A stretch of 64,000 bases of DNA, from contig NC_088934.1 in the NCBI RefSeq assembly GCF_038396675.1, forward strand, positions 39,545,001 to 39,609,000, given 5' to 3'. Below are positions 969 to 27,230 of the stretch, in pieces. The notes beneath the pieces were generated by a model that had not been told where the DNA came from, did not search any database, and was given only the letters and a program-made list of their open reading frames with translations. The stretch comes from Hydra vulgaris. Lineage: Eukaryota > Cnidaria > Hydrozoa > Anthoathecata > Hydridae. The position numbers were made by a program, and so were the translations under genes. The first letter of the stretch is position 1; each line of letters begins with the position of its first letter.

Positions 969-1660
969 ATTTAAAAAACATTCTCAAAAATGACATTATT
1001 ATATACCATTTTATAGCTTAAACATCTGGCTTTTATAAAATGTATATATTTCTGCATAACTGTCATGTCGTTTGCATTTTTAACTGTTTTTAAAAAAGAT
1101 GTTTTTTAATTTTTTCAATTTTTTAATTTATTTAATAATATTTTTCGTGTTACTAATAAGCAAAAAAAATTTATTAATATTTAGATCGTCATTTTTTTAT
1201 TGCATAATTTAATAAAACTAAGTATTATCTATCAAATGGTTTATTGCAAAGTTATTTTGCACGTAATTTATATCAAATAAATTGATTTCTAATGATTGCG
1301 TATTTAAAGTACTTTTCTTAGTGAAAACTTCACTTAAATAATAAAATACTTTTGCGCTCCAAGGTCCTCCAGAAATTTGAGACTTGAAATATCTTTTCTA
1401 ATATGTACATAATCGATATATATTTTACCTATTGTCGACGGATGTCGACTGCGTCTCTATACATAATTTTTATGAGTTGCATGTTTGGGACAGGGGGGCC
1501 AACATTCTGGTTTTTTTTGTGTTCCCAGGCTCCAATCATTGTAATTTTTCAGCAAAACATCTTTTTTATCACATTAAAATGAACATGTAAATATGTGGAG
1601 CTTGTTTTATGTCTGGTTGTCCAAATGTCTCATGAATAATATATTTTTTGTATTTGTAGG

Positions 1661-3596
1661 ATGAAAATGAAATATTTTGATATCTATGAATTCTTAGTGC
1701 ACAAGCGTAATAATCTACAAATATCTGACTGTGGTATTGAGGGAACACTTATTGAGGCAATGAATTTGGATTGTAACAAGAAGCAATTAGGAACTATACT
1801 AGCACATCTAAGAGATAGGTGGCGCAAGTCAGATAGCAACATGGCTCGATTTGAAAAAAAGAATGAAAAATGGCTCCAAAGCCATGTTCCTGAAGATATA
1901 AATATAACACCAATACCTATTGGAAGGCCAATTAAGGCAAACTTTGATGACTACTCTACTAAAACCAAAAAACATAAAGTTAGTCACTTAACTGAAATGT
2001 ATTCTGCTTCTGCGTTGCAATTTGCTTCAGAAATTAAAAGGAGAAAAGAAAATCCAATTGAAAAAACCTCAAAAAAAGATTTTAGAATGTCTAAAGATGA
2101 AGCTCTTTGTCTTCTTTTAGATGCTAAATTAACAAAAGCTTCCTACAAAATTATTAGAAATCAAGCAGTTGAAAAGGGATTTGATATATATCCGCCATAT
2201 AATGATGTTCGAGATGCAAAGTTGTTATGCTATCCTGCAGATATATCTGTCTCAGATTTTTCAGCTGAAATAAAACTGCAAGCTTTGGTGGATCATACAT
2301 CAAATAGAATATGCCAGGCACAGTATGATGTCCTTAGCACTGAAGGCACTCCAGATAGTCTTTCTTTCTCTGAGATACAAAGTAGGCTTTGATGGTGCCA
2401 CAAGACATTCCATATATAAACAAATATCGCAAGAAACAGTAACAAGAAATTTAAACGATGAGCAGGCACTTTTTATTACTTGCCTAGTACCATTGGACTT
2501 GTGTGGCTTTTCAAATGGAAAACGTTACCCAGCTTGGCGAAACCCACGACCATCATCAACAATGTACTATAGACCTCTGCGTTTTAAATTTGAAAAAGAA
2601 ACGGCAGCAGTTTCTAAATCAGAGGAGGATCTCATTAGGCTTGAGATTTCAAACTTGAAAGATACTGAAGTTGATATAAATAACAAAAAAATCAAAATAC
2701 ATCATATAATACAAATTACTATGATTGATGGAAAAGTTCACACTGCTCTTTCAGATGTTACAAATTCTAGTCAATGCTGTATTGTATGTGGGGCAAGTCC
2801 CAAAGTAATGAATGATATTGAAAAAATGATTTTGAAAAACGATATGACAGGCAGTTATTCATATGGTTTATCATCCTTACATGCTTGGATACGTTTTTTA
2901 TCCTTACATGCTTGGATATGTTTATTACATATTGGATATAAAATGACTTTGAAAAAGTGGCAGGCAAGAACAGTAGAAGATAAATCTAAAGTAAAGGCTC
3001 TGAAACAACAAATTCAAAATAGATTTAAAGATGAAATGGGCTTGATAGTTGATGTTCCGAAATCTAGTGGTAGTGGAACATCAAATGATGGAAATACGGC
3101 TCGAAGAGCATTTCAAAATGCAGAAAAGTTTGCAGAAATTTTAAATATTGATGTTGAACTGGTTCTAAATTTTCATATTATATTGGCAACAATTTCATGT
3201 GGTTTAGACATTGACACTGAAAAATTTGAGGCTTTCTGTTTAAAAACAGCTCGTCTTTACGTTCATCATTTTCCTTGGTACTATATGCCACAATCTCTGC
3301 ACAAAATTTTAATTCATGGTTCTGAAATTATTAAAACTTTAGCATTACCCATTGGTATGTATTCTGAAGAAGCTCAAGAAGCGCGCAATAAAGACTTTCA
3401 AAACTATCGTGAACATTTTGCAAGAAAATCATCTCGTGTGAAAACGAACCAAGATTTGTTAAATCGACTACTGTGTACATCCGATCCATTTATTGCATCT
3501 CTGAGAAAGACAGCAGGAAGTAACACCAAAACGAAAAACTTACCACCAGGAGTTATTGACTTATTGATGTCATCCACAGATTATATTAGTTTATAG
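1661..3596 (+). pseudogene. Transib transposase (RAG1-core relative), frameshifted
   Basis: Two overlapping plus-strand frames make one protein of about 640 residues. Frame one (1661-2392, 243 aa) is an N-terminal region rich in Lys/Asp. It shifts within a CTTTCTTTCT run near 2362-2373 into the second frame, which carries VGFDGATRHS (probable first catalytic Asp) and SQCCIVCGASPK (a CxxC like the RAG1/Transib zinc site). It continues with GNTARRAFQNAEKFAEI, SLHKILIHGSEII and EEAQEARNKDFQNYREHF, all motifs I recognise from Transib proteins, and ends DLLMSSTD. The motif SLHAWI is duplicated in tandem (nt 2873-2930), which probably damages the zinc-binding/helical region. TTTGTAG at 1653-1659 just before the first ATG could be a splice acceptor, so an upstream exon is possible. 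Function in life: cut-and-paste transposition. This copy is dead. Confidence 0.85.
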
Positions 3597-3974: not shown

Positions 3975-4075
<101 letters not shown>

Positions 4076-4158
4076 TCTATAGTTTGTTGGCTTTGGGAAG
4101 AGCGGAAGGAAAAAAGTGATTCTTACGCCAACATATACGTCACTTTTAATTACTTTTA

Positions 4159-4192
4159 ACTTTCGTCCAACATTTCCGTGTTGGACGAAAGT
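4159..4192. other. 14-bp stem hairpin inside foldback arm
   Basis: ACTTTCGTCCAACA / TGTTGGACGAAAGT with the 6-base loop TTTCCG, perfect over 14 bp. The opposite arm carries the same structure near 5615-5648. A hairpin nested in each arm of a larger palindrome is unusual; its function is unknown. Confidence 0.75.
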
Positions 4193-4403
4193 AAAAACCA
4201 TTAATTTAATTACAAATTAATCGTTTTTTAAAAAAACCACAAAAACGCAAATTTAATTGACCAGAATGTTTTAAAAACATTGTGAATGTTTTTAACAATA
4301 TAAACAATGTTTTTATTTTTTTTTTTTTAATAAAATGTTTTTATTTTTATTTTTTTTAATAAAATGTTTTTATTTTTATTTTTTTTACTGAAAATCATGC
4401 GCG

Positions 4404-4592
4404 GAGTGTTGCTACATCGACTATCTTATAGCCTGACTCGCAAGGGAGTGCTGCTACATCGACTGACAAATAGCCTGACTCGCAAGGGAGTGCTGCTACA
4501 TCGACTGACAAATAGCCTGACTCGCAAGGGAGTGCTGCTACATCGACTGACAAATAGCCTGACCCGCAAGGGAGTGCTGCTACATCGACTGA
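4404..4592. repeat. 42-bp minisatellite, left arm (about 4.5 units)
   Basis: Units start GAGTGYTGCTACATCGACTG at 4404, 4446, 4488, 4530 and 4572. The 42-bp period is a multiple of three, so an ORF of 14-residue repeats (motif KGVLLHRL) reads through. The mirrored array at 5190-5380 gives the same ORF on the other strand. Both ORFs are best treated as by-products of the repeat. Confidence 0.9.
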
Positions 4593-4711
4593 GGGTTTGG
4601 TTAGGGCAGGCAGTCTATCATTATTAAAAAAAAAAAATTCCGGTCTTGCATTTTAATTTTTACTTTTTGTCAACAAAATATCGAAAAAACTTTCGGACAA
4701 CATCTAAGGGT

Positions 4712-4773
<62 letters not shown>

Positions 4774-4806
4774 TATATATATAGATATATATATATATAT
4801 ATATAT

Positions 4807-4885
<79 letters not shown>

Positions 4886-4943
4886 TATATATATAGATAT
4901 ATATAGATATATATATATATATATAAAGACTCATTAGTATATG

Positions 4944-4978
<35 letters not shown>

Positions 4979-4983
4979 TATAT

Positions 4984-5073
<90 letters not shown>

Positions 5074-5189
5074 CCCTTAGGTGTTGTCCGAAAGTTTTTT
5101 CGATATTTTGTTGACAAAAAGTAAAAATTAAAATGCAAGACCGGAATTTTTTTTTTTTAATAATGATAGACTGCCTGCCCCAACCAAAC

Positions 5190-5380
5190 CCTCAGTCGAT
5201 GTAGCAGCACTCCCTTGCGGGTCAGGCTATTTGTCAGTCGATGTAGCAGCACTCCCTTGCGAGTCAGGCTATTTGTCAGTCGATGTAGCAGCACTCCCTT
5301 GCGAGTCAGGCTATTTGTCAGTCGATGTAGCAGCACTCCCTTGCGAGTCAGGCTATAAGATAGTCGATGTAGCAACACTC
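5190..5380. repeat. 42-bp minisatellite, right arm (inverted copy)
   Basis: Reverse complement of the left-arm array, with the same unit number and the same variant units in mirrored order (the CTATCTTATAG variant lies outermost in both arms). The mirror order shows that the whole arm was copied, not that each array expanded separately. Confidence 0.9.
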
Positions 5381-5739
5381 CGCGCATGATTTACAGTAAA
5401 AAAAATAAAAATAAAAACATTTTATTAAAAAAAATAAAAATAAAAACATTTTATTAAAAAAAATAAAAATAAAAACATTGTTTATATTGTTAAAAACATT
5501 CAAAATGTTATAAAAACATTCAGAATGTTTTTAAAAACATTCTGGTCAATTAAATTTGCGTTTTTGTGGTTTTTTTAAAAAACGATTAATTTGTAATTAA
5601 ATTAATGGTTTTTACTTTCGTCCAACACGGAAATGTTGGACGAAAGTCAAAAGTAATTAAAAGTGACGTATGTGTTGGCGTAAGAATCACTTTTTTCCTT
5701 CCGCTCTTCCTAAAGCCAACAAACTATAGAACTATACAT

Positions 5740-5846
<107 letters not shown>

Positions 5847-7724: not shown

Positions 7725-7871
7725 AATAGAGTTTATATAGCTAACTAGTATATATTAATACACACATACACACACACACACACAAATATATATGTAGGTA
7801 CGCGGAAATCGCGTTTTACGGAGCCGATTTTTGTGCTAAAATTTTGTTCCACGTTTTTTTCACTTTTTTTA

Positions 7872-8521
7872 AGGTAGCGTCAGACAAACGTTTTTTTGTG
7901 GTGTTTCTTTTTAGAAACATATATAAACCTAGATATTTTTCTGAAAGAAGAAGGGTTAATCTTGATTTTTATGTGGCTTTTAATGTATGGTTACTAATTT
8001 TTCATGGTTTGTTATGGTCCTGAAAATATAGTATATGTTCTCACATTAATTTATAGTAGAAGAAATGTTGAGCCCGCTTTTTTTATTATTGATTTAACTT
8101 TCTACATGCATTTTCTAAGCACATGCCAATTTTCAAAGAAAAAAAAAAGGGAGCAGATAGTTTACTATGTGTTATTCTACAAATACCACTTTTTTTAGGT
8201 AGCCTTAGGCAAACGTTTTTTTGAGGTATTTCTTTTTAGAAACACATATAAACATAGGATATTTTTTGAAAGAAGAAAGGTCAAGCTTGATTCTTATATT
8301 ATTTTTAAGTATGGTTGCCTAACTCTTTTATGAATTTTTTTGCTGACAATTTTCTATGAAAATTTAGTCGATGTTCTCACATTAATTTCGTATCAAAGAA
8401 ATGTTGAGCCCGCTTTTTTTATTATTTATTCTACTTTCTACATGTATTTTCTTTTTACCTGCCAAATTTCAGCCAATAAAAAATGGGAGCAGATATATAA
8501 CTAAGTGCAACACTTTTGGTA
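7872..8521 (+). repeat. Two tandem units of about 325 bp at the element's left side
   Basis: Both units start AGGTAGC and share CAAACGTTTTTTTG, TTTCTTTTTAGAAACA, ATGTTGAGCCCGCTTTTTT and other blocks at the same offsets. Copy 2 has the same pair at 14675 and 15001 (offset 326). The duplication therefore predates the split of the two copies. It looks non-coding; subterminal transposase-binding or regulatory sequence is a guess. Confidence 0.8.
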
Positions 8522-8668
8522 CCTAATTTCTGTTTTAATGAATTTTTTTTTCGGTAACAGCGAACTATATAAATACGGGGGCGGATAGGGGGGCCAGTTC
8601 TTAGAAAAACAATTTTTTTTCTGCATTATTTTTATTATTAGATAACAGATAACAGAAAAACAGATAAA

Positions 8669-10573
8669 ATGGAAAAGAAAGACTTACAAAAATATATAGA
8701 TTCTCTAACAGATAGTAAGCAAATTTTTTTTTTCATAATTATATTATTGCTAACTATTTTTAAAACAAAAACATAAATGTAAAAACCTTACTCTTTTTGT
8801 TTATCTTAGTAAGAGATTCTTAAGTATAAAAAGATTAATGTATTACTAATACATTTTTAGTAACACATTTTTAATAATACAGTTTTAATCTAATACTATT
8901 AAATTAAAACTGTTTTGATTTTATTGATAGATTAAAGTATCATTTCACAGGTTCATTAAAACATCATATAAGTATAAAAATTTGTTAATACACAAATAAG
9001 TATTAATAATACTTATTTGTATATTAACAAATACTTTGTTAAAAATAAATTATTTTATGATTTGTATAATTTGCTTCTTTTCTTTTAATTTCTATAGAAG
9101 TCTACAAATCGAATTTATATTGATTTATTCTTAACAGACATATTTTTTGGTGTTTAGTTTAAAAATGGTATAAAAATTACACTCATCTTCTTTTATTATT
9201 TTCCTGTTGTATACTACTTCATCCTGTAAATATTATTTAAATAATTATACAAACATGTCTAATATTTGCTTCTTGTTTAGATCCTAGCACTATCATTATA
9301 GATTTTTTGAGATTTCTTAAGTATAGTTCCCATAACATTTTTGCATTAACTTAATGTTTCTAAAGTTTTTTTAAATATAAGATATAATTATTATTGTCTA
9401 TACCTTTTTCTTGATGTATACTAGTTTATATATATTTATTGTTTACATAAGTATATACCCATTCCTAATGTTAGCTTCTTGTTTATATACATATAATCTT
9501 TATATTTTAATCTTTTAGTTGTTATTTTTTGAACTTACTTTTGGCAATTACAAGGTGTTATTTTTTATCGTACAATTTTTTTGTTACCTTTAGTTGAATC
9601 GACAAGGTCTACCATTGGTAAGTTTGTATATTATAACTTTTGTTATGAATCATAGTAACAAAAGTTTAAACATGTGTGTCTAGGTTTAACTCATATTTTG
9701 TTTAACTCTCTTTTCATCACTTGCTATAGTTAGTAATTTTGAAAACCAGGAATTTTTATTCCGTGAATATATTTAATGCTAAACTTATTTTTTTTTGCGG
9801 TGTCTTACTCCTTTTTTAACTTTAGAACCATCTTCATCTGGTACAGTTGGTAAGTTCTAAAAACCTGTTATGCATTCCTTATCAAATGCAACATTTATTT
9901 TTTATAACCATCTTTTAACCTTAGTTCCAACTTTAACTGCAACAAGTGGTATGTCTAAAAACTATTACTTTTTAATATGAGTGCGCATTTCTTAGCAATT
10001 GCAATATCTTTAAATGACAACTTTTTCTACCTTTAGTTCCACCTGCTCAACCTTCTGCTGGTAAATTTATGTATTAAAAATGTATCTGAATGGTTATCAA
10101 ATTTTTATTATTCCAATTAATATACACTGTTTAATACATTTATATTGTGTTTTCATTTGAATTCTCATAAAAGGAAAATCACTAGCAGTATTGAAATTTT
10201 TACTCTTATTAAAAATTTGTTTACCTATCAGTGATTTATTAGTCAATAAATTTATATATTTAGATTTTACTTTAACAAGTAAAAAATTTTTATTAAGTGT
10301 TACATAATGCCATTTGTTACTAATATAATTATTATTTATTTGCTTTTAGAGCTTACATATGAAGCCTACAGGGTTTACAGGACCCAGCATCCTGGACCCA
10401 CCAGCAACAGATCATATTTGCGTTGGATCCAGTTTGGGGGCAATGATGACCCTCTTTTTAGATGGCCCTATTATCCCCCAAACAGGAGTGCTGGGGACAG
10501 CAGCAGAGGTACTGCAAGTGGTTGTGGCAGAAGAGGTCAACCTAGGCGGAAAGTTTTATGGCTTACAAAATGA
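8669..10573 (+). CDS. Spliced cargo gene with four 24-nt microexons (unknown family)
   Basis: Predicted exons: 8669-8714 (ATG, MEKKDLQKYIDSLTD plus one base, donor GTAAGC); four microexons of exactly 24 nt at 9594-9617, 9826-9849, 9925-9948 and 10037-10060; and a terminal exon 10350-10573. Every acceptor ends TTTAG or TTAG, and every donor is GT (GTAAG, GTAAG, GTATG, GTAAA). All junctions are phase 1, so each microexon inserts eight residues (PSSSGTV, PTLTATS and PPAQPSA cores) without changing frame. The last exon starts LTYEAYRVYRTQHPGPTS, has WIQFGGNDDPLFRWPYYPP, and ends with a Gly/Arg-rich basic tail at TGA 10571-10573. The total is about 120 residues. No signal peptide or known domain is evident. 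Copy 2 keeps the terminal motif with two stop codons. I do not recognise the family. Possible donorless microexons lie near 9098 and 9282. Intron calls are from sequence alone. Confidence 0.6.
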
Positions 10574-10842
10574 GTACCACAAGTTTTGTAGCTTGCAAAT
10601 ATGGTGCAACAAGTTTTATGGCTTGCAAAATGAGTACCGCAAGTTTTGTAGCTTGCAAATATGGTACAGCAAATTTTATGGCTTGCAAAATGAGTACCGC
10701 AAGTTTTGTAGCTTGCAAATATGGTACAGCAAGTTTTATGGCTTGCAAAATGAGTACCGCAAGTTTTGTTGCTTGCAAATATGGTACAGCAAGTTTTGTA
10801 GCTTGCAAATATGGTACAGCAAGTTTTATGGCTTGCAAATTT
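10551..10842 (+). repeat. Alternating 30-bp tandem repeat (60-bp higher-order unit)
   Basis: Two related 30-mers alternate: type A with TTTTATGGCTTGCAAAATGA and type B with TTTTGTAGCTTGCAAATATG. Nearly five AB pairs run from the last codons of the cargo gene, and one extra B unit near 10790-10820 breaks the alternation. The 30-bp period keeps more than one plus frame and one minus frame open, so the long ORFs here are not evidence of coding. Copy 2 lacks the array at the matching place. Confidence 0.9.
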
Positions 10843-10873
10843 TTTTTGATAGACGGCTCTGGCTTACCTTCAC

Positions 10874-11163
10874 GTGGTGTCTATTGTTAAAAATGATTTA
10901 ATTTTATTCATTAATGGAATTGAAAAATTAAATCATTCACTAAAAGCCAAGACAAAACTTAATTACATTTTTTATTTCAAAATACTTATTGTTTTTGTGT
11001 GTTTTTTGTTAAGGTTGGAGTGGGTAATCGGTCCCTTTAAAGGACAAAATGGATATTCAAACTCATCTTGTAATGTGGTAAATTAGTTTTTTATTCTAAT
11101 TTCTCTCTGTTTAAGAAATTTTAACATTTTTTGTGAAATTGTTATTAATTTTTTTTTTTCAGG
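10874..11163 (+). other. AT-rich 3' part of GGTACG copy 1, no gene seen
   Basis: Contains short blocks matched in copy 2 (AAACTCATCTTGTAATGTGG against CCAACCTGCATTTTGTAATG near 17010-17035). A 70-aa frame here has no supporting features. Confidence 0.5.
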
Positions 11164-11209
11164 TTTAAGGCAGCAGGGGGGAGGGGGCGGCATACGCCCC
11201 CTCCAAAAA
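11164..11209 (+). other. GC-rich hairpin, possibly a terminal mini-exon
   Basis: A T-run ends in TTTCAG just before this block and GTAATT follows AAAAAAG, so it has splice-site-like borders. Inside, GGAGGGGGCG / CGCCCCCTCC (11180-11189, 11195-11204) forms a perfect 10-bp stem with loop GCATA. Copy 2 has two related GC-rich blocks (17131-17168 and 17290-17350), and copy 3 has one near 27190-27215. Whether it is an RNA structure, an exon or a remnant is not known. Confidence 0.45.
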
Positions 11210-11837
11210 AGGTAATTTTGTACACCACTAGTTACTATTTTTCAAAGTGTTAAAATGTTATATTTATTTTTTATAATTTACTCATTTTAGTAAATATTAC
11301 AATATTTAAAAGAATGAAATTTTGATAGGGTGTGTTAAACCTTACCCACAACCTAACACCCAACTTTATGATAGACCTGTAATACTCGCTAGTGATGTAG
11401 AATAAAATAATACCAATATGTTATTCATAAATATTATCAATTTCATAAAAAAAACACTCTTTAATGGAGAAAAAGTGTTTTTTGTGAGGTGTCGGTGGTG
11501 GATTAGCACCCCCTCTGGATCCCTTGATGCGCCATTTACCTAGAAAAAAGTTTAAAATTAAAGCCCATTTTTACACCTATCTTTTGATATCAAGTTATAA
11601 ATTTTTGAATAAGAATTGACAATGTTATAACAATTTATGTAAAAAAAAAAATTTTTTTGACCACAGTTTTATCAAGAAATCCATATATCGAAAATTTGCT
11701 ACTAAAAACGTCATAACTTTTTATAGAATCGTCCGATTTTCGTAATTTTTTCACCTTTGAAATACTGTATTTGAGAGCTTTCTAATGATATATAACATTG
11801 TATTATTTGAATAATTTAAAAAAATCAGTCCACGTAC

Positions 11838-12375
<538 letters not shown>

Positions 12376-14560: not shown

Positions 14561-15921
14561 CGAGACTCGAGACCGATTATCTAGTGTCTAATATATATAG
14601 GTACGCGGAAATCGCGATTTACGGAGACAATTTTTATGCTAAAATTTTGGTTCTCATTTTTTTAACACTTTTTTAGGCAGCGTGGGACAGACGTGTTTTT
14701 GTAGAATTTTTTTTTTAGAAACATATATACACATAGATACTTTTTTGAAAGAAGAAGAGCTAATCTTGATTTTTCAAGACTTTTATGTATGGTTACTGAA
14801 CTTTTTTATGGATTATTTTGCTCCTGAATATTTGGTTGATGTTCACACATGAAATTGCAGTCGAAGAAATGTCGATCCCCCTTTTTTTATTATTAAAATA
14901 GTTTTCTACATGCATTTGTTATTCACTTGCCAAATTTCAACGAAAAAAAAATACCAGCAAATAGTTTAACTTGTGTTAGATTAAGTTTATCATTTTTTTT
15001 AGGTAGTTCTAGACAAACGTTATTTTGTGGTGATTCTTATTAGAAACATATATGAACCTAGACTATTTTTAAAAAACGAAAGGTTAATCTTGATTTTTTT
15101 ATGACCATAATGTATGATTATCATACTTTTTTATAGATTATTTTTTCGAAAACTTTGCATGAAAATTTGGTTGATGTTCACACATGAAATTGCAGTCGTA
15201 GAAATGTCGATCCCCCTTTTTTTATTATTAAAATAATTTTCTACATGCATTTCCTATTCACATGCTAATTTTCAACGAAAAATAAATACCAGCAAATAGT
15301 TTAATTAGTGTAGAACTTTTTGTGCCTATTTTTGTTTTTTTGTTGTTGTTGTTTTTTTCGGTAAGCGAAATACGGGGGCGGATAAGGGGGATAAGGACTC
15401 AAAAAAATTATTGCAATTTTGTATTATGTTGATTTTTATTATTAGATTAAAATTAAAGTGCAAAATATAAATAAAAGTGTTTTTAATTCTCTAACAGATT
15501 AAAGTTAATTTATTTTATTTCATAATAGTATTATAGTTAACTTATGCTTGAAACAAAAAATAATAATTAATGTAAAAACTTATTGTTTTCTTATGTTACA
15601 TATAAAAAGAATAATGTTTCAGATAAAGACTCTTGCTTTTGAATGGATTGTTAAGTGATAGTATCAGTTGACAAATTTATTAACACACCATATATAAATA
15701 AGTATACAAATCAGATTCTTCATTGGTTTATTCCTAACAAAAAATTTGTTAGTGTTTTTCAACTATAATAAAAGATATTATTGTTATTATCTTTTTTTAC
15801 TTCGATTGTATACTTCTATAACTGGACTATTATTTAAATCATTATACTAGCATGCCTTATGTTTACTTATTGTTTAGACTCTACAGACTCTGTTTTTTAT
15901 TACAACTTTGTTAACCTTGAG

Positions 15922-16651
15922 ATAAATCTTCAGCTGCTACAACTGGTAAGTTCAAAAAAGCTATTATTTTCTAATCTGTTTATGCATGATGTATGCGTAA
16001 AACAATTATTTCTAATATGTGTATGCCTTTCTTATCAATTGCAAATAAAATTTTATTTTATTACAACTTATATTTTCATTTAATTTCACAACCTTCTTAT
16101 AATCAGCCCAACCTTCTGCTAGTAAAATTATGATTTAATTATTTTTCTGAATGATTATTGAATTCATAATATTTCTATTTACATACACTATTTAATACAT
16201 GTTTATTATGTTATCCATTAAAGTGCAGTAGAAGTAAAATCAAGAGTAGTATTTAAATTTTTCTTTGATTAACATTTTTAAAATATATAGTTGATTAATT
16301 AGTCTTTCATTTTATTTGTTCAGCCAATGACTTTCACAAGTAGTTGGTTTATATTAAATGTTACATAATACCATTCAGTACTAATCTATTTACAATTCAA
16401 TGTCATTAGATCTTACATATGGTGTCTATCAGAGATACATGTATCAGCACCCTGGACCGACTAGCAGTCGCTCATTTTTGTGATGGGTCCAGTTAGGAGG
16501 GAATGACGGGGAATAATTTAGCTGGACCTATCATCCCCTAACAGGGGTGCTAGGAGCTACAGCAGAAGAAAGCTGTTGTGGAGAAGTTTGCAGGCGAAGA
16601 CAGCATGGTAGCAGCTTTGTGGTTAATGGTGGCATACACAATCATTAGGCA
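15922..16651 (+). pseudogene. Degenerate cargo gene of GGTACG copy 2
   Basis: One 24-nt microexon survives with AG/GTAAG borders (15922-15945, KSSAATT core). A shortened one of 15 nt (16107-16121, PQPSA core) is still in phase. The terminal exon from 16410 reads LTYGVYQRYMYQHPGPTS, then RSFL-stop-WVQLGGNDGE-stop, so two stops kill it. The first-exon region (about 15480-15500) has lost its donor. Residue-level similarity to copy 1 (TY..Y..Y..QHPGPTS.RS, W.Q.GGND) is much better than the surrounding intron similarity, which argues that this really was a protein. Confidence 0.6.
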
Positions 16652-17537
16652 CCACCATTCTTGTTTTTTTATTAAAAATTTATATGTAATATCATTAAGT
16701 TTGTTTTCCATTTTGTCTCAATTTTTTTCAAACATTTGAATTATTTATTTAAAATTTATTTACCCAAAATAATTTAAAAATGAAGCATTGACAAGTGTAA
16801 TAGTTTTAATGAAATATTTTGTATGTTTTCAATGTGATTAAAAATTGTAGTATAAAAGTAGTCAAGTTGTACCTAGAAATAGTTATAAACTTTTAGATAC
16901 AATCAGGACTTTTTGAGGATTTCATAGCCCATATTAAATACAGTGTTAAATTTATGTGTAATATTTTATTGAGTTGATAAATATGAAAAGTCTTTTTTTT
17001 AGGGTGGATACTCCAACCTGCATTTTGTAATGTAATAAGATTTGTAAAGTTATGTCTCTATTTTATATAAAAGCAATTTAAAAACGTTTTTAAATTTCTG
17101 TTGACATTTTTTTCAAGTTTAAATATGAAAGGAAGGGGGGGGGGGCGTTAGTTGTGGCACACGCCCCTTTCCTAACTAATGTAGTAAAATAAACTTGTAT
17201 ACTAATTTCTTATTTTCAATAAACTCAATTTAAAATCTTTTTTCAAATCTCTTTACAAATTTTTTTTTTAGGTTGGAAGACTAAAGGAGATGGGGGGGGG
17301 GGGGGAGGGGGGGAAGGAGGAGTTAGGCGTGGCACATATCCCACCCCTAATGCCAATTTATACACCACTTGTAAACGCTGTAGAGTAAGAAAGTATTATT
17401 TATACTTCCGAACACAAAATATAATCAGGGTTTTTAAGATTAAAGTATTTATAATTATCATTATCATCAAATCATCAAATTCATCATTATCATCATTATC
17501 ATCATTATCATCAAATTTATTAAATATAACTTGTGGA

Positions 17538-18485
17538 GTGCCACAAGGCTCAATACTAGGCCCATTGCTGTTCCTGATATACATCAATGATCTATACAAA
17601 GCCTCAAACTTAATGACAATTATGTTTGCGGATGACACTAATCTTTTTTTAACCAGCAATGATCTAACAACATTATTTAGAAATATGAACACTGAGGTTA
17701 TTAAAATCTCTGACTGGTTCAAATCAAACAAATTATCAATTAATATAGAAAAAACTAAATGGATGCTTTTTTACCCAAATTCAAAAAAAAAATTAATTCC
17801 AAGTATTACGCCACTTATTTTTGTTGACAATATTGAAATAAAGCGAACAAAAATTACAAATTTTTTAGGCATTTATATTGATGAAAATCTTAAATGGAAA
17901 CACCACGTTAACAACCTAAATAACAAAATTGCTAGAACTATAGGAATATTATATAAATCAAGAAGTTTCTTAAATAAACATACTTTAACTCAATTATACT
18001 ATTCCTTTATTTACTGCCATATTAACTACGCTAACATTGCTTGGAGTAGTGTGAACAAAAGTATACTAGAACCTCTTCAACGTCAACAGAAACACATTGC
18101 ACGTCTTATAAACTTTAAAGACCGTTTTACTCATGCCAGGCCTCTCTTACTTGAAATGAATATTTTAAATATATATCAGCTAAATGTTTATAATATTTTA
18201 TGTTTTATGTATAAATGTAAAACCAACGATTCCCCTTCTTCCTTTCATAACCTATACTCAATAAAAGAAAAAAACAAGTACAATCTACGAAATGATAATT
18301 CTATTCGACTACAATTTTCGCATACAAATTTTGGTAAATCTTGTGTTTCTTTCCGAGGAGCCTTTCTTTGGAATAAAATAGTTTTGAAAATTTTTGACTT
18401 TTCTCATAAATGGACTTATACCTCTTATAAAAGGAAACTTAAGAAAATCATTTTGTCTATTGATAATATACTTTTATACTTTTAA
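17538..18485 (+). pseudogene. LINE RT ORF fragment (RT palm onward)
   Basis: The open frame of 315 codons starts in the RT at PQGSILGPLLFLIYINDL. The catalytic FADDTN box is at about residue 31. The thumb region has NFLGIYIDENLKWKHH, then the LINE C-terminal region (NIAWSSVN...PLQRQQKHIARLI...FRGAFLWN) ends at TAA. Upstream RT motifs and the endonuclease are missing through 5' truncation. Within the fragment there is no stop or frameshift, so the insertion may be fairly young. It is very similar in layout to the minus-strand copy at 61.8-64 kb. Confidence 0.88.
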
Positions 18486-18618
18486 TAGGAAATTTATTTG
18501 AAAATTTCTATTTTTATTTAAATTATGTTTTTCTTCTAATATTGTTAAACACAGTTTTTTTTTTTATTTATTTTAAAATATGTAAATTTATAACGAGTTT
18601 GCAGTGGTTCTCGACGAC

Positions 18619-18634
18619 AAGACCTTAAGGTCTT
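18619..18634 (+). other. LINE 3' UTR hairpin, copy 2
   Basis: Stem AAGACC/GGTCTT with loop TTAA, about 130 nt after the ORF stop and about 115 nt before the A-rich tail. Context CGACGAC-stem-CTACGAGTCTCCG. Confidence 0.65.
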
Positions 18635-19271
18635 CTACGAGTCTCCGCATTCTTTTTTTTTTTTATTATTTATAGTAAAAATCCTCACTTGTAATTGTTT
18701 ATATTATTATATCTTAACTTGTAATTTTATAAATATTGAAGAAATGTAAAAAAAGTTAAAGAAAAAAAAAAAAATAATAAAAAAAATAAGAATGTAACAT
18801 TTCACTATGAGGGTGTTAAAACGTAACGAAAACATCCACCCTTTAATATAAGATAGACCACTAATATTTGAAAATGGAATGGAAGCAAATTAGATCAACT
18901 TTTTGTGTATAAAGATAAAAAAATTTATCAGAAAAAACAATCTTTCAGATGAAAAACTTGTATTTTTTAAGGCTTACGATAGTGTGCCATACCCCCTCTG
19001 GCCCTCTAGACACCCCCTTTATCTATAGACTAATATAAACTTGTAGCCTACTCTTACATCTATCTTTTGATACCAACTTATAGGCATTTGGATAAGACTT
19101 GACAAAGTTATAACAATTTTAGTGAAAAAAATAATAATTTTGGAACCAGTTTATTCAATAAATCCATATATCTAAAATTTGCTACTAAAAACTTCATAAC
19201 TTTTTTTTGAATTGTTTGTTTTTGATAATTTTTTCATCTTTAAAATACTGTATTGAAGGGCTTTCTAATTA

Positions 19272-21057
19272 CAGGGTGTATACTTAATTTCTGACCCCCT
19301 ATATCTCGGTTTACGAATACGGTATTTCAACACATACCATTTTATTACTGTCATATCAATTTAATTAGACAAAGAATATATGTTAATGTCAGTAATCAGT
19401 ATTTTGTCCATTTCTTTCTATGCATTGAGTAATTCTCCTTGGTAGGCTTTCTACTAGGCGAAAACACTCTTCTTGCTTAATGGCAGCCCACTCCTGTTCA
19501 ACACGTCTGATCAACTGTTGACGATTACGAGGTCGAGGATTGTGTAAAACACTGTTCTGGAGTCTTGACCAAATATGTTCGATGACATTTAAGTCGGGCG
19601 AGTTGCCAGGCCAGTCGGTCCACACTGCTGGAAAGTCTCTGTTGATCACATTCATTGTTGCTCTTGCCGTGTGGCAAGTTGCTCCATCTTGCATCAGAAT
19701 AACTTTATTTCTCACAGGAAAGATGGTCTTATCATCAGCTGCACGTTTGTACACAGGTAGAATAATATCACGGTAATACTTTCCATCAACAGTTTTATTT
19801 TGCTCAACAACAACCAGATCAGTTTTGCCATATCGAGAAATGCCGCCGGCTTTTCTCGATATGGCAAAGACCTTTGAGACCGAATTTCGGACGTCGAACA
19901 TAAGGTATTGACTCTGGTGTTGCTGTACGTACTCTTTGATTTTGACGGTTTAGAGCCGGATATAATTCAATTGTACTCTCATCAGTCCACAATACGTGAG
20001 CTCGTTTCACTTTACCATCCGGTAAGTCATCTGCGAATCCCTCTTCTTGCAAACGAGTACAAAAATTTACGCGATCAGTGATGTTTTTCTGCGACAACAT
20101 GGGTTTCACTTTCTGTGTATAGGCATGCTTTCCCCATGTGGTCTTGCGCAAGTATTTACTGATAGCACTGTGTGAAATTGTTTTTCCTCTTTCTTTTTAA
20201 CTGTCTGAAAAATTCAGTTTTTTAGCTACAGTTCTCGTTCCAACTCCGACTTTGTCTTTGACCCAGTTTCTGACCTTGTCCTTGGTTCTTGGTGAAAACT
20301 TTGTTGGCTTTCCAGGTTGCTGAGCATCTGTGACGTCACCCTCTTGTTTTCTTGCCCACTTCCTTACAGTATTTCGAGAAACTTTACACTGTCTAGTGAT
20401 TTCTTTAATGCTTAATCCTTGACTACATAAAACTTGAATTCGGTGACGAAGTAACTGTTTATCAGAACTCATTTTCAGAGTAAATTGCTAAAAAACACAT
20501 GTTATATAATACATGTTAGTAACATATACATATAATACATATAAATACACACAGAGTAATTAATGTAAATCATAAACAGACACCAAGTATCACTGATATA
20601 AATAAGGCAAATAAAAATAATGCTGATTATTTCTTGTAGCCAAAATGCTAAACATTAAAAAAGTGTAAACTTAATTTCTGACCCCGGTTTCGAAGAGTAG
20701 CAATACGTCATAAACAGTGAAGAAAAAATGTGTTATTAATTGGCAAACTAAGATCACATATTAAGGAGTAATAAGGACAATTTACTTAAAAATCGTGCTA
20801 AAACTATAGTCATAATGCCAAAGGCCGTGGAAGACAAGGAGAATGAAAATATCATTTTTATGTATGTTGACAAAATGGCTCCCATAAACATTTTCTGAGG
20901 TCATATCCTATCTGAAGTGAGCGTTTTACGTGCAGAAATTATAGTTACACCAAAATACATACTATAGTATTTTTCGGGCTAAAGTAGCATTTAAGAGAGC
21001 AACTCAAAATCTTGTGTTTGTAACATGTGGGGGGTCAGAAATTAAGTATACACCCTG
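19272..21057 (-). mobile_element. Tc1/mariner-family transposon, complete ends, TA target
   Basis: Both ends read CAGGGTGTATACTTAATTTC inward and are flanked by TA (19270-19271; 21058-21059). A third, partial copy of the terminal sequence (GTGTAAACTTAATTTCTGAC) lies internally at 20664, in the same orientation as the left end. The interior carries a minus-strand transposase gene. The element sits in GGTACG copy 2 at a TA that matches the uninterrupted sequence of copy 1. Confidence 0.92.
19389..20472 (-). pseudogene. Tc1/mariner transposase, one stop and one frameshift
   Basis: 20472-20197 holds the N-terminal HTH (LSIKEITRQCKVSRNTVRKW) and second HTH region (RTVAKKLNFSDS). An in-frame TAA at about 20196 then interrupts, and the frame continues KERGKTISHSAISKYL...LWTDESTIEL with the first catalytic Asp. 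A single extra G near 19879 shifts the frame; the downstream part (19901-19389) holds MQDGATCHTA (second Asp) and DWPGNSPDLNVIEHIW (catalytic Glu). I count 35 residues between the second Asp and the Glu, so a DD35E-like spacing. Two simple lesions suggest recent death. Confidence 0.9.
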
Positions 21058-21111
21058 TATATATAACATTCTAGTATATGCTCAATTTAAAAATTTCAGT
21101 CCACGTACCTA

Positions 21112-26524: not shown

Positions 26525-26546
26525 TACATAAATACAGCTTCATATA

Positions 26547-27230
26547 GGTATCTAGATTAAAAAATTAAAATAGATCAAAGGCTAGATTGTCATATATCAT
26601 TAGAAAATGCTTCAATACAGTACTTGAATCGTGAAAAATTATTAAAGTCAAACAATCCTACAAAATGTTATGAGGATTTTAGTAGAAAATATTTGGAATA
26701 TAGGTTTGATTAAGAAACTGTGGTCAAAAATAAATTTTTCTTGACTTAAATTGTTATAACTTTTTCAATTCTAATTTAAATATATATAACTTGGTATCAA
26801 AAGATAGGTGTAACTGTGGGCCACAAAGAGATAACTGTCTCTATCTACCGGGCATTTCGTGGGAGCTAGAGCACGTAATAAACCACACCTTCACCATTAA
26901 AATTTTAATTTTTTTTTATTAAAGAGTGCTTTTATTAAAAAATGGTAAATATTTTTATACAAAATATTTTTAATTTTTTCATTCCAAACCAGCAACAGTG
27001 ATTGGTGTATATCATAGTTGGTGGTGGATATGGTTTAACACACCCTAATTTCACAAATGTTTAATTCTTAAAAAATTTCTATTATTAATAACATAAGTGA
27101 AATTAGTATTCAGTTTAAATAATATCAAAATAAGTTATTTTACATGATTTGCATTAATTGGTGGTGCACATATTGATTTGTGGAAGGAACGAGTGCACAC
27201 CCCTCCCCCAACCTGAAAAAAAAATTTATA
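26547..27230 (-). mobile_element. GGTACG element, copy 3 (right part only, inverted)
   Basis: It begins TA-GGTATCTAGATT and then follows, on the minus strand, the right part of copies 1 and 2. Shared features include CTTTCTAATGATATA, CTACTAAAA, the ATAACTTTTTCAA region, CACCTATCTTTTGATACCAA, GGTGTGTTAAACC and the G-rich block after TTTCAGGT at 27190-27215. The left half with the cargo gene is absent or unrecognisable. Confidence 0.6.

Follow-up and report, generated by a model that had tools for sequence, protein, structure and literature searches.

Pack-type elements are non-autonomous transposons with terminal inverted repeats (TIRs) that carry genes. Micro-exon genes (MEGs), by the rule given in an excerpt of PMC7653826, have at least seven exons, at least half of which measure less than 70 nt and are multiples of three, in a run of at least four, and those of schistosomes are described in an excerpt of PMC8293314 as encoding secreted proteins with a signal peptide. 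The origin of microexon genes is hard to see in old genes. Here, we describe a family of TIR elements from the cnidarian Hydra vulgaris that carries a gene of this architecture, starting from one copy in a stretch of 64,000 nucleotides (hereafter, the window). The gene shares with the MEGs of schistosomes and tapeworms the runs of short exons that are divisible by three and can be skipped without a frameshift, and differs from the flatworm genes by its location inside a multi-copy TIR transposon of a cnidarian, by microexons that are nearly all of one length and by their tandem array. Similarly, the element resembles the Pack-type in its TIRs, its target duplications, the spliced gene inside and the lack of a visible transposase, whereas its gene occurs in diverged subfamilies, between which it looks conserved, and is made of a duplicating microexon unit.

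Among titles and the first parts of abstracts (a scope that left subscription literature mostly outside), we found no paper describing microexons in a transposon gene, and none that combined 'micro-exon genes' and 'cnidarian'. This is weak evidence that the transposon-borne, cnidarian version of the flatworm architecture has gone undescribed.

Element structure and target duplications

The window element is one of many copies in the genome, and extends from 7795 to 11840 (plus strand; copy 1, TAGGTACGCGG ... CCACGTACCTA), its ends having been matched to relatives. Its first 904 bases gave at least 47 matches in the genome (911.5 Mb in 15 contigs; 40 of 959 candidates were scored), many of them at 96-99% identity and with some copies counted in pieces. 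Twenty copies were taken for comparison, 17 of which were complete at both ends. Among these 17, 15 have TAGGTACG at the 5' end and 14 have CGTACCTA at the 3' end, the others carrying one change each. Perfect target duplications were recorded for 11 of the 17 (eight of 7 bp and three of 8 bp, e.g., GCCTTGG, CTTCATG, ATGATAT and CTTATGTG), while the other six comprised a one-mismatch duplication (L015), a copy with none (L018) and four copies that are uninformative since they lie inside TA repeats. Two copies counted among the 11 (L009 and L021) are situated on different contigs and have the same flanking bases, so they may represent one event; one of them may be a segmental duplicate, or both may lie inside another repeat. 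The window copy is likewise flanked by TA repeats and is thus uninformative on its own duplication. The TA flanks reported in the earlier note proved to be wrong, as the TA sits inside the TIR (TAGGTACG...CGTACCTA) and the relatives have duplications of 7-8 bp; on the same grounds a Tc1/mariner affiliation (TA target duplication) was rejected.

The same TIRs occur in the copies with readable ends of both subfamilies examined, being found in 17 copies of subfamily 1 and in L037 and L038 of subfamily 2 (L037 with the 7-bp target duplication ACAATAG); within subfamily 2, L036 has the 5' TIR alone and no TIR was present in the stretch examined for L035. hAT transposons generate 8-bp target duplications, a length close to that seen here and shared by three of the 11 perfect cases, the other eight being of 7 bp; the TIR TAGGTACG departs at base five from what we take to be the hAT pattern. 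Dada elements, according to the excerpted part of PMC8869645, generate duplications of 6-7 bp, similarly near to the 7-8 bp of this element, and insert into RNA genes.

Close to the 5' end, the element contains a direct duplication of about 336 bp (7861-8495, plus strand), which is present in copy 2 as well, followed by a TATA-like block (ACTATATAAATACGGGGGCGG, 8564-8584, plus strand) that may act as a promoter. In seven relatives searched for this block, it was exact in three and changed in two, with the search motif unmatched in the remaining two. The two longer copies that had been reported from the window turned out to be of unequal standing: copy 2 (14598-21111, plus strand), nearer to subfamily 2, is full-length, albeit decayed and interrupted by nested insertions, while copy 3 (26545-27105, minus strand) could be aligned as a 3'-end fragment only (26565-27105; the last 20 bases, to 26545, were placed by eye). 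The open reading frames of the window element, L037 and L013 that were listed include no recognizable transposase-like frame, and a transposase split over small exons is possible. Copy 2 harbors a nested element (19272-21059) with inverted ends of its own and a DDE_3 transposase apparently split over two frames; the DDE_3 match (19389-19946) was rejected as the element's own transposase because it lies inside this insertion.

Exon structure of the window copy

The gene begins with a 46-nt exon 1 (MEKKDLQKYIDSLTD, 8669-8714) and continues with four microexons of 24 nt (m1, 9594-9617; m2, 9826-9849; m3, 9925-9948; and one matching the m10 of relatives, 10037-10060) and a 224-nt terminal exon (10350-10573), all on the plus strand. 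The AG/GT borders of the four 24-nt exons fall exactly where the earlier note had placed them, and the spliced frame (46, 24, 24, 24, 24 and 224 nt, joined in phase 1) is open over 121 aa; the note had likewise described an open frame. The six exons of the note are right, and what it missed is a 36-nt exon 2 (9281-9316, plus strand; PSTIIIDFLRF), for which 17 of the 18 relatives aligned have a GT donor that the window copy lacks. The terminal exon encodes a conserved YR.QHPGPTSN...RW stretch and a basic, RG-rich tail, and is overlapped by a 60-bp tandem repeat (4.8 copies, 10551-10840, plus strand), which has probably taken the place of the C-terminus that L026 possesses. Further downstream lies an alternative last exon (11014-11027, plus strand; GWSG followed by a stop).

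From all the acceptor-donor distances tested (6-60 nt) between 8715 and 10349, 24 was the sole one to occur four times. In 2000 dinucleotide shuffles, neither 24 nor any other length was ever seen four times (maximum 3), and this held under both acceptor rules. A shared block (GCATTYCTTAKCAAWTGCAAYAT) was noticed at 9872-9894 and 9985-10007, roughly 30 bases upstream of m3 and m10; similar blocks recur across the unit alignment, and are perhaps a splicing signal.

The microexon array in relatives

A scan recovered 7-12 exons of 24 nt in each of the 19 copies in which exon 1 and the terminal exon are both present. The 18 copies that were aligned (L017, which lacks the terminal part, and L013, which has extra units, were left out) follow a common plan of exon 1, the 36-nt exon 2, m1-m10 and the terminal exon, and the ancestral array probably consisted of ten microexons, most of which were arranged as tandem units about 113 bp long. 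Each unit comprises an intron plus one phase-1 exon of 24 nt in full, and the introns of different units can be aligned; the microexons m3 to m10 of L022 follow one another at steps of 113, 113, 113, 113, 113, 108 and 112. The window copy retains m1, m2, m3 and m10 only (m4-m9 being absent), and its m3-to-m10 step of 112 nt is what would be expected from the in-register loss of six units. At the other extreme, L013 has four copies of m1, each within a repeat of about 547 bp. Microexon units are both gained and lost between copies. Copy L024, with exon 2 and m1-m10 in one run, has the exon count demanded of micro-exon genes in the excerpted rule of PMC7653826, while the window copy, with six exons in the model of the earlier note, falls below it.

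Microexon length was divisible by three in 179 of the 180 cases in the 18 aligned copies (m9 is 27 nt long in L024 and L026), and 151 of the 180 had AG and GT borders too. Blocks out of frame or devoid of AG/GT borders in other copies had been named as the result that would speak against the microexon gene; the counts give the opposite picture, and the view of a mobile element carrying a gene built by the duplication of symmetric microexons is upheld by these 18 copies. All ten microexons are intact in only two of them (L024 and L026), and the m7 acceptor is lost in 13. The similarity among introns is weak within the window copy alone (best-matching intron pair, 4 of 500 shuffles) and is made clear by the units of the relatives. 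Exons of 24, 24, 27 and 24 nt recur in the more distant subfamily, which is about 72-76% similar in the 5' part. At least 150 matches to the terminal exon were scored in the genome; in two places (G000 C13:570571-579806 and C8:37955465-37965510) four such matches stand in tandem, about 3 kb apart.

When units are compared with each other in windows of 24 columns, divergence is highest in the exon, a value reached by none of the 106 other windows (0 or 1 of 106 on a composition-corrected scale, depending on the unit set). Positive selection on the microexons between units is a lead only, as the windows overlap, the introns are AT-rich and the between-unit pN/pS equals 0.90.

Annotated isoforms and splicing

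NCBI annotation generally requires transcript support for extra isoforms. Two proteins of LOC136087846 correspond exactly to copy L024, one (P0009, X2) through exon 1, exon 2, m1-m3, m5-m10 and the GWSG exon, thus skipping m4, and the other (P0010, X3) through exon 1, exon 2, m1-m9 and the GWSG exon, thus skipping m10; each of them is given by one exon combination alone among those tested. A third (P0011, LOC136076724) is an exact match to copy L038 with its m4 skipped and the terminal exon used, and all three include the counterpart of exon 2. These annotated models parallel the exon-skipping variants of micro-exon genes mentioned in the excerpt of PMC7653826. The protein variants proposed earlier are thereby borne out as far as the skipping of single microexons in three annotated models goes. 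Differences of eight residues separate further isoform pairs of the same LOC (P0020/P0021, P0027/P0029 and P0003/P0030, the last pair differing in its ends as well), next to differences of 2, 6 and 13 residues and alternative starts. Judged from protein sequence, P0023 and P0025 look as though they lacked exon 2, like the model of the earlier note. Since 24-nt exons can be skipped without breaking the protein, the mobile element may give rise to several variants of it.

Protein relatives and putative function

All the matches at E up to 1 in the protein searches (10/10 and 15/15) and in the profile search (32/32, under 22 LOC names and two product names, many as isoforms, with the best 8000 candidates by shared words being scored) are named Hydra vulgaris. 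On these matches, and on the three annotated proteins of this species that are identical to exon combinations in the genome containing the window, the window was assigned to H. vulgaris. These searches brought up no sequence relation to MEGs, the low-complexity exons limiting what such searches can recover. Pfam gave weak matches only (best Mit_ribos_Mrp51, E 0.0085, 8 of 21 members), HTH_38 weakly matched one of the 21 aligned members (E 0.059) and the PDB sequence search had no match at E up to 1. Arg and Gly abound in the basic C-terminal part, and the microexons supply a Pro/Ser/Thr linker; from this composition we infer a putative RG-rich nucleic-acid-binding protein with a linker of variable length, in which the N-terminus may form a short helix. 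Compared with the signal peptide of schistosome MEGs, the main start exon (MEKKDLQKYIDSLTD) is not signal-like by eye, and the alternative start of P0014, P0027 and P0029 looks hydrophobic (by eye). In P0007 the microexons are preceded by an N-terminus that resembles, by eye, a helix-turn-helix, as if spliced to a neighbouring transposase.

Apparent constraint and decay of the terminal exon

Between the subfamilies, the terminal exon yielded, over its first 50 codons, dN/dS values of 0.12-0.23 (mean 0.163, 24 pairs), with dS (1.4-2.5) near saturation. Subfamily 1 was represented by L015, L026, L028 and the window copy and subfamily 2 by L029-L032, L037 and L038; L024 (intact over these codons), L009, L011, L012 and L025 of subfamily 1, as well as L033 and L034 of subfamily 2 (one stop each), were left out. 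For one between-subfamily pair, rounded counts of synonymous and nonsynonymous changes gave a Fisher p of 4e-6, and a separate comparison of copy 2 of the window with subfamily 2 (45 codons) gave dN of 0.37-0.39 and dS of 1.1-1.4. On the evidence of these four and six copies, the terminal-exon protein looks conserved by selection between the two subfamilies.

Within subfamilies, the evidence is divided. In favour of conservation, among four subfamily 2 copies the terminal exon shows 25 pairwise differences in 1548 positions and no gaps, versus 113 in 1763 and 10 gaps for the preceding intron; L036 alone accounts for 83 of the 113, and without it the figures are 12/774 and 30/881. Against it, the similarity of the terminal exon is almost equalled by that of the 3' flank in subfamily 2 (72/2774 differences, 27 gaps). 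Over 15 pairs of six subfamily 2 copies, 33 nonsynonymous and 10 synonymous differences were counted in the terminal exon, a ratio of about 0.9 per site that gives, on few changes, no sign of constraint. The young subfamily 1 gave none either (N:S of 26:9 versus an expected ratio of about 2.1:1): here, microexons vary like introns (35/240 versus 208/1400 columns, p = 1.0), splice dinucleotides are not spared (10/44 variable) and the terminal exon is more variable still (41/167). The terminal exon is broken (acceptor, frameshift or stop) in 14 of 18 young copies and unbroken in L015 (the exon 1 of which is broken), L024, L026 and L028, and two clades with shared breaks occupy several different genomic sites. 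Considering that copies with broken terminal exons still spread, the gene or its protein seems dispensable in cis. From the best 15 genome matches to P0020, 10 were without a stop, a ranking by score that favours intact copies.

Proposed explanation and its rivals

We propose, at a probability of roughly 0.57, that this family of TIR transposons carries one microexon gene, which is spliced into variants and the protein of which serves the family in trans. Transcription would be driven by the TATA promoter inside the element, and splicing would deliver a set of proteins with a common short N-terminus, an RG-rich, nucleic-acid-binding C-terminus and a Pro/Ser/Thr linker of variable length between them. 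Such proteins may bind element DNA or RNA, or may counter silencing, while the young copies would be freeloaders moved by a transposase and helpers encoded elsewhere. This keeps two parts of the earlier interpretation, namely the duplication-built gene on a mobile element and exon skipping (present in the annotated models), and drops the TA target duplication. A bolder form of this proposal, which we consider tentative and rather doubtful, holds that a selfish element has acquired its own diversity generator: a self-duplicating minisatellite of intron plus 24-nt exon that adds eight residues per unit without a frameshift, with exons diverging more between units than introns do and combinatorial variants acting for the element against its host, i.e., an independent origin of a microexon gene caught in the making.

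The main rival to an element gene is a host gene captured by a non-autonomous element and carried as a passive passenger, the conservation reflecting the host gene or a few domesticated copies instead of any service to the transposon. The lack of a transposase-like frame among the listed reading frames (window, L037 and L013), the spread of young copies with broken terminal exons and the missing sign of constraint inside either subfamily would all suit such a passenger; we nevertheless deem it less likely, as the same TIRs are present in those copies of both examined subfamilies that have readable ends, and as 10 of the best 15 P0020 matches are stop-free (even if the score ranking favours intact ones). 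With two subfamilies read, a host gene may well lie elsewhere. Fewer chances still are given to the array being a minisatellite with splice-like sites arisen by chance, annotated as a gene and yielding little or no protein today. Such noise would explain why microexons and introns are equally variable in young copies and why 29 of 180 microexons are not intact, but it is hard to reconcile with three annotated isoforms identical to exon combinations of genomic copies, with the recurrence of 24, 24, 27 and 24 nt exons in the distant subfamily or with the between-subfamily dN/dS of about 0.16, and is thus quite improbable. That the exons of the window copy are mere chance AG/GT pairs in AT-rich DNA can be considered refuted: acceptors and donors are also found there at other distances, but no shuffle in 2000 reached four at length 24, and the exons are common to the 18 aligned relatives.

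The preferred reading, of a gene serving its element family, suggests a transposon family with a splice-variable gene in an animal that is easily kept and manipulated. The array copies differ by only 0.4-4.4% over their first 1.7 kb, with one copy having one microexon quadrupled; since both the loss and the multiplication of units are visible between such similar copies, gain, loss and selection become directly measurable.

Two other features of the window were recorded. A pair of overlapping reading frames at 1640-3596, one of 250 aa (without a Pfam match) and one of 440 aa, is perhaps a broken transposase. A large palindrome at 3978-5828 is 94.5% identical to its own reverse complement over 1882 columns, and has 42-bp tandem repeats in each arm.
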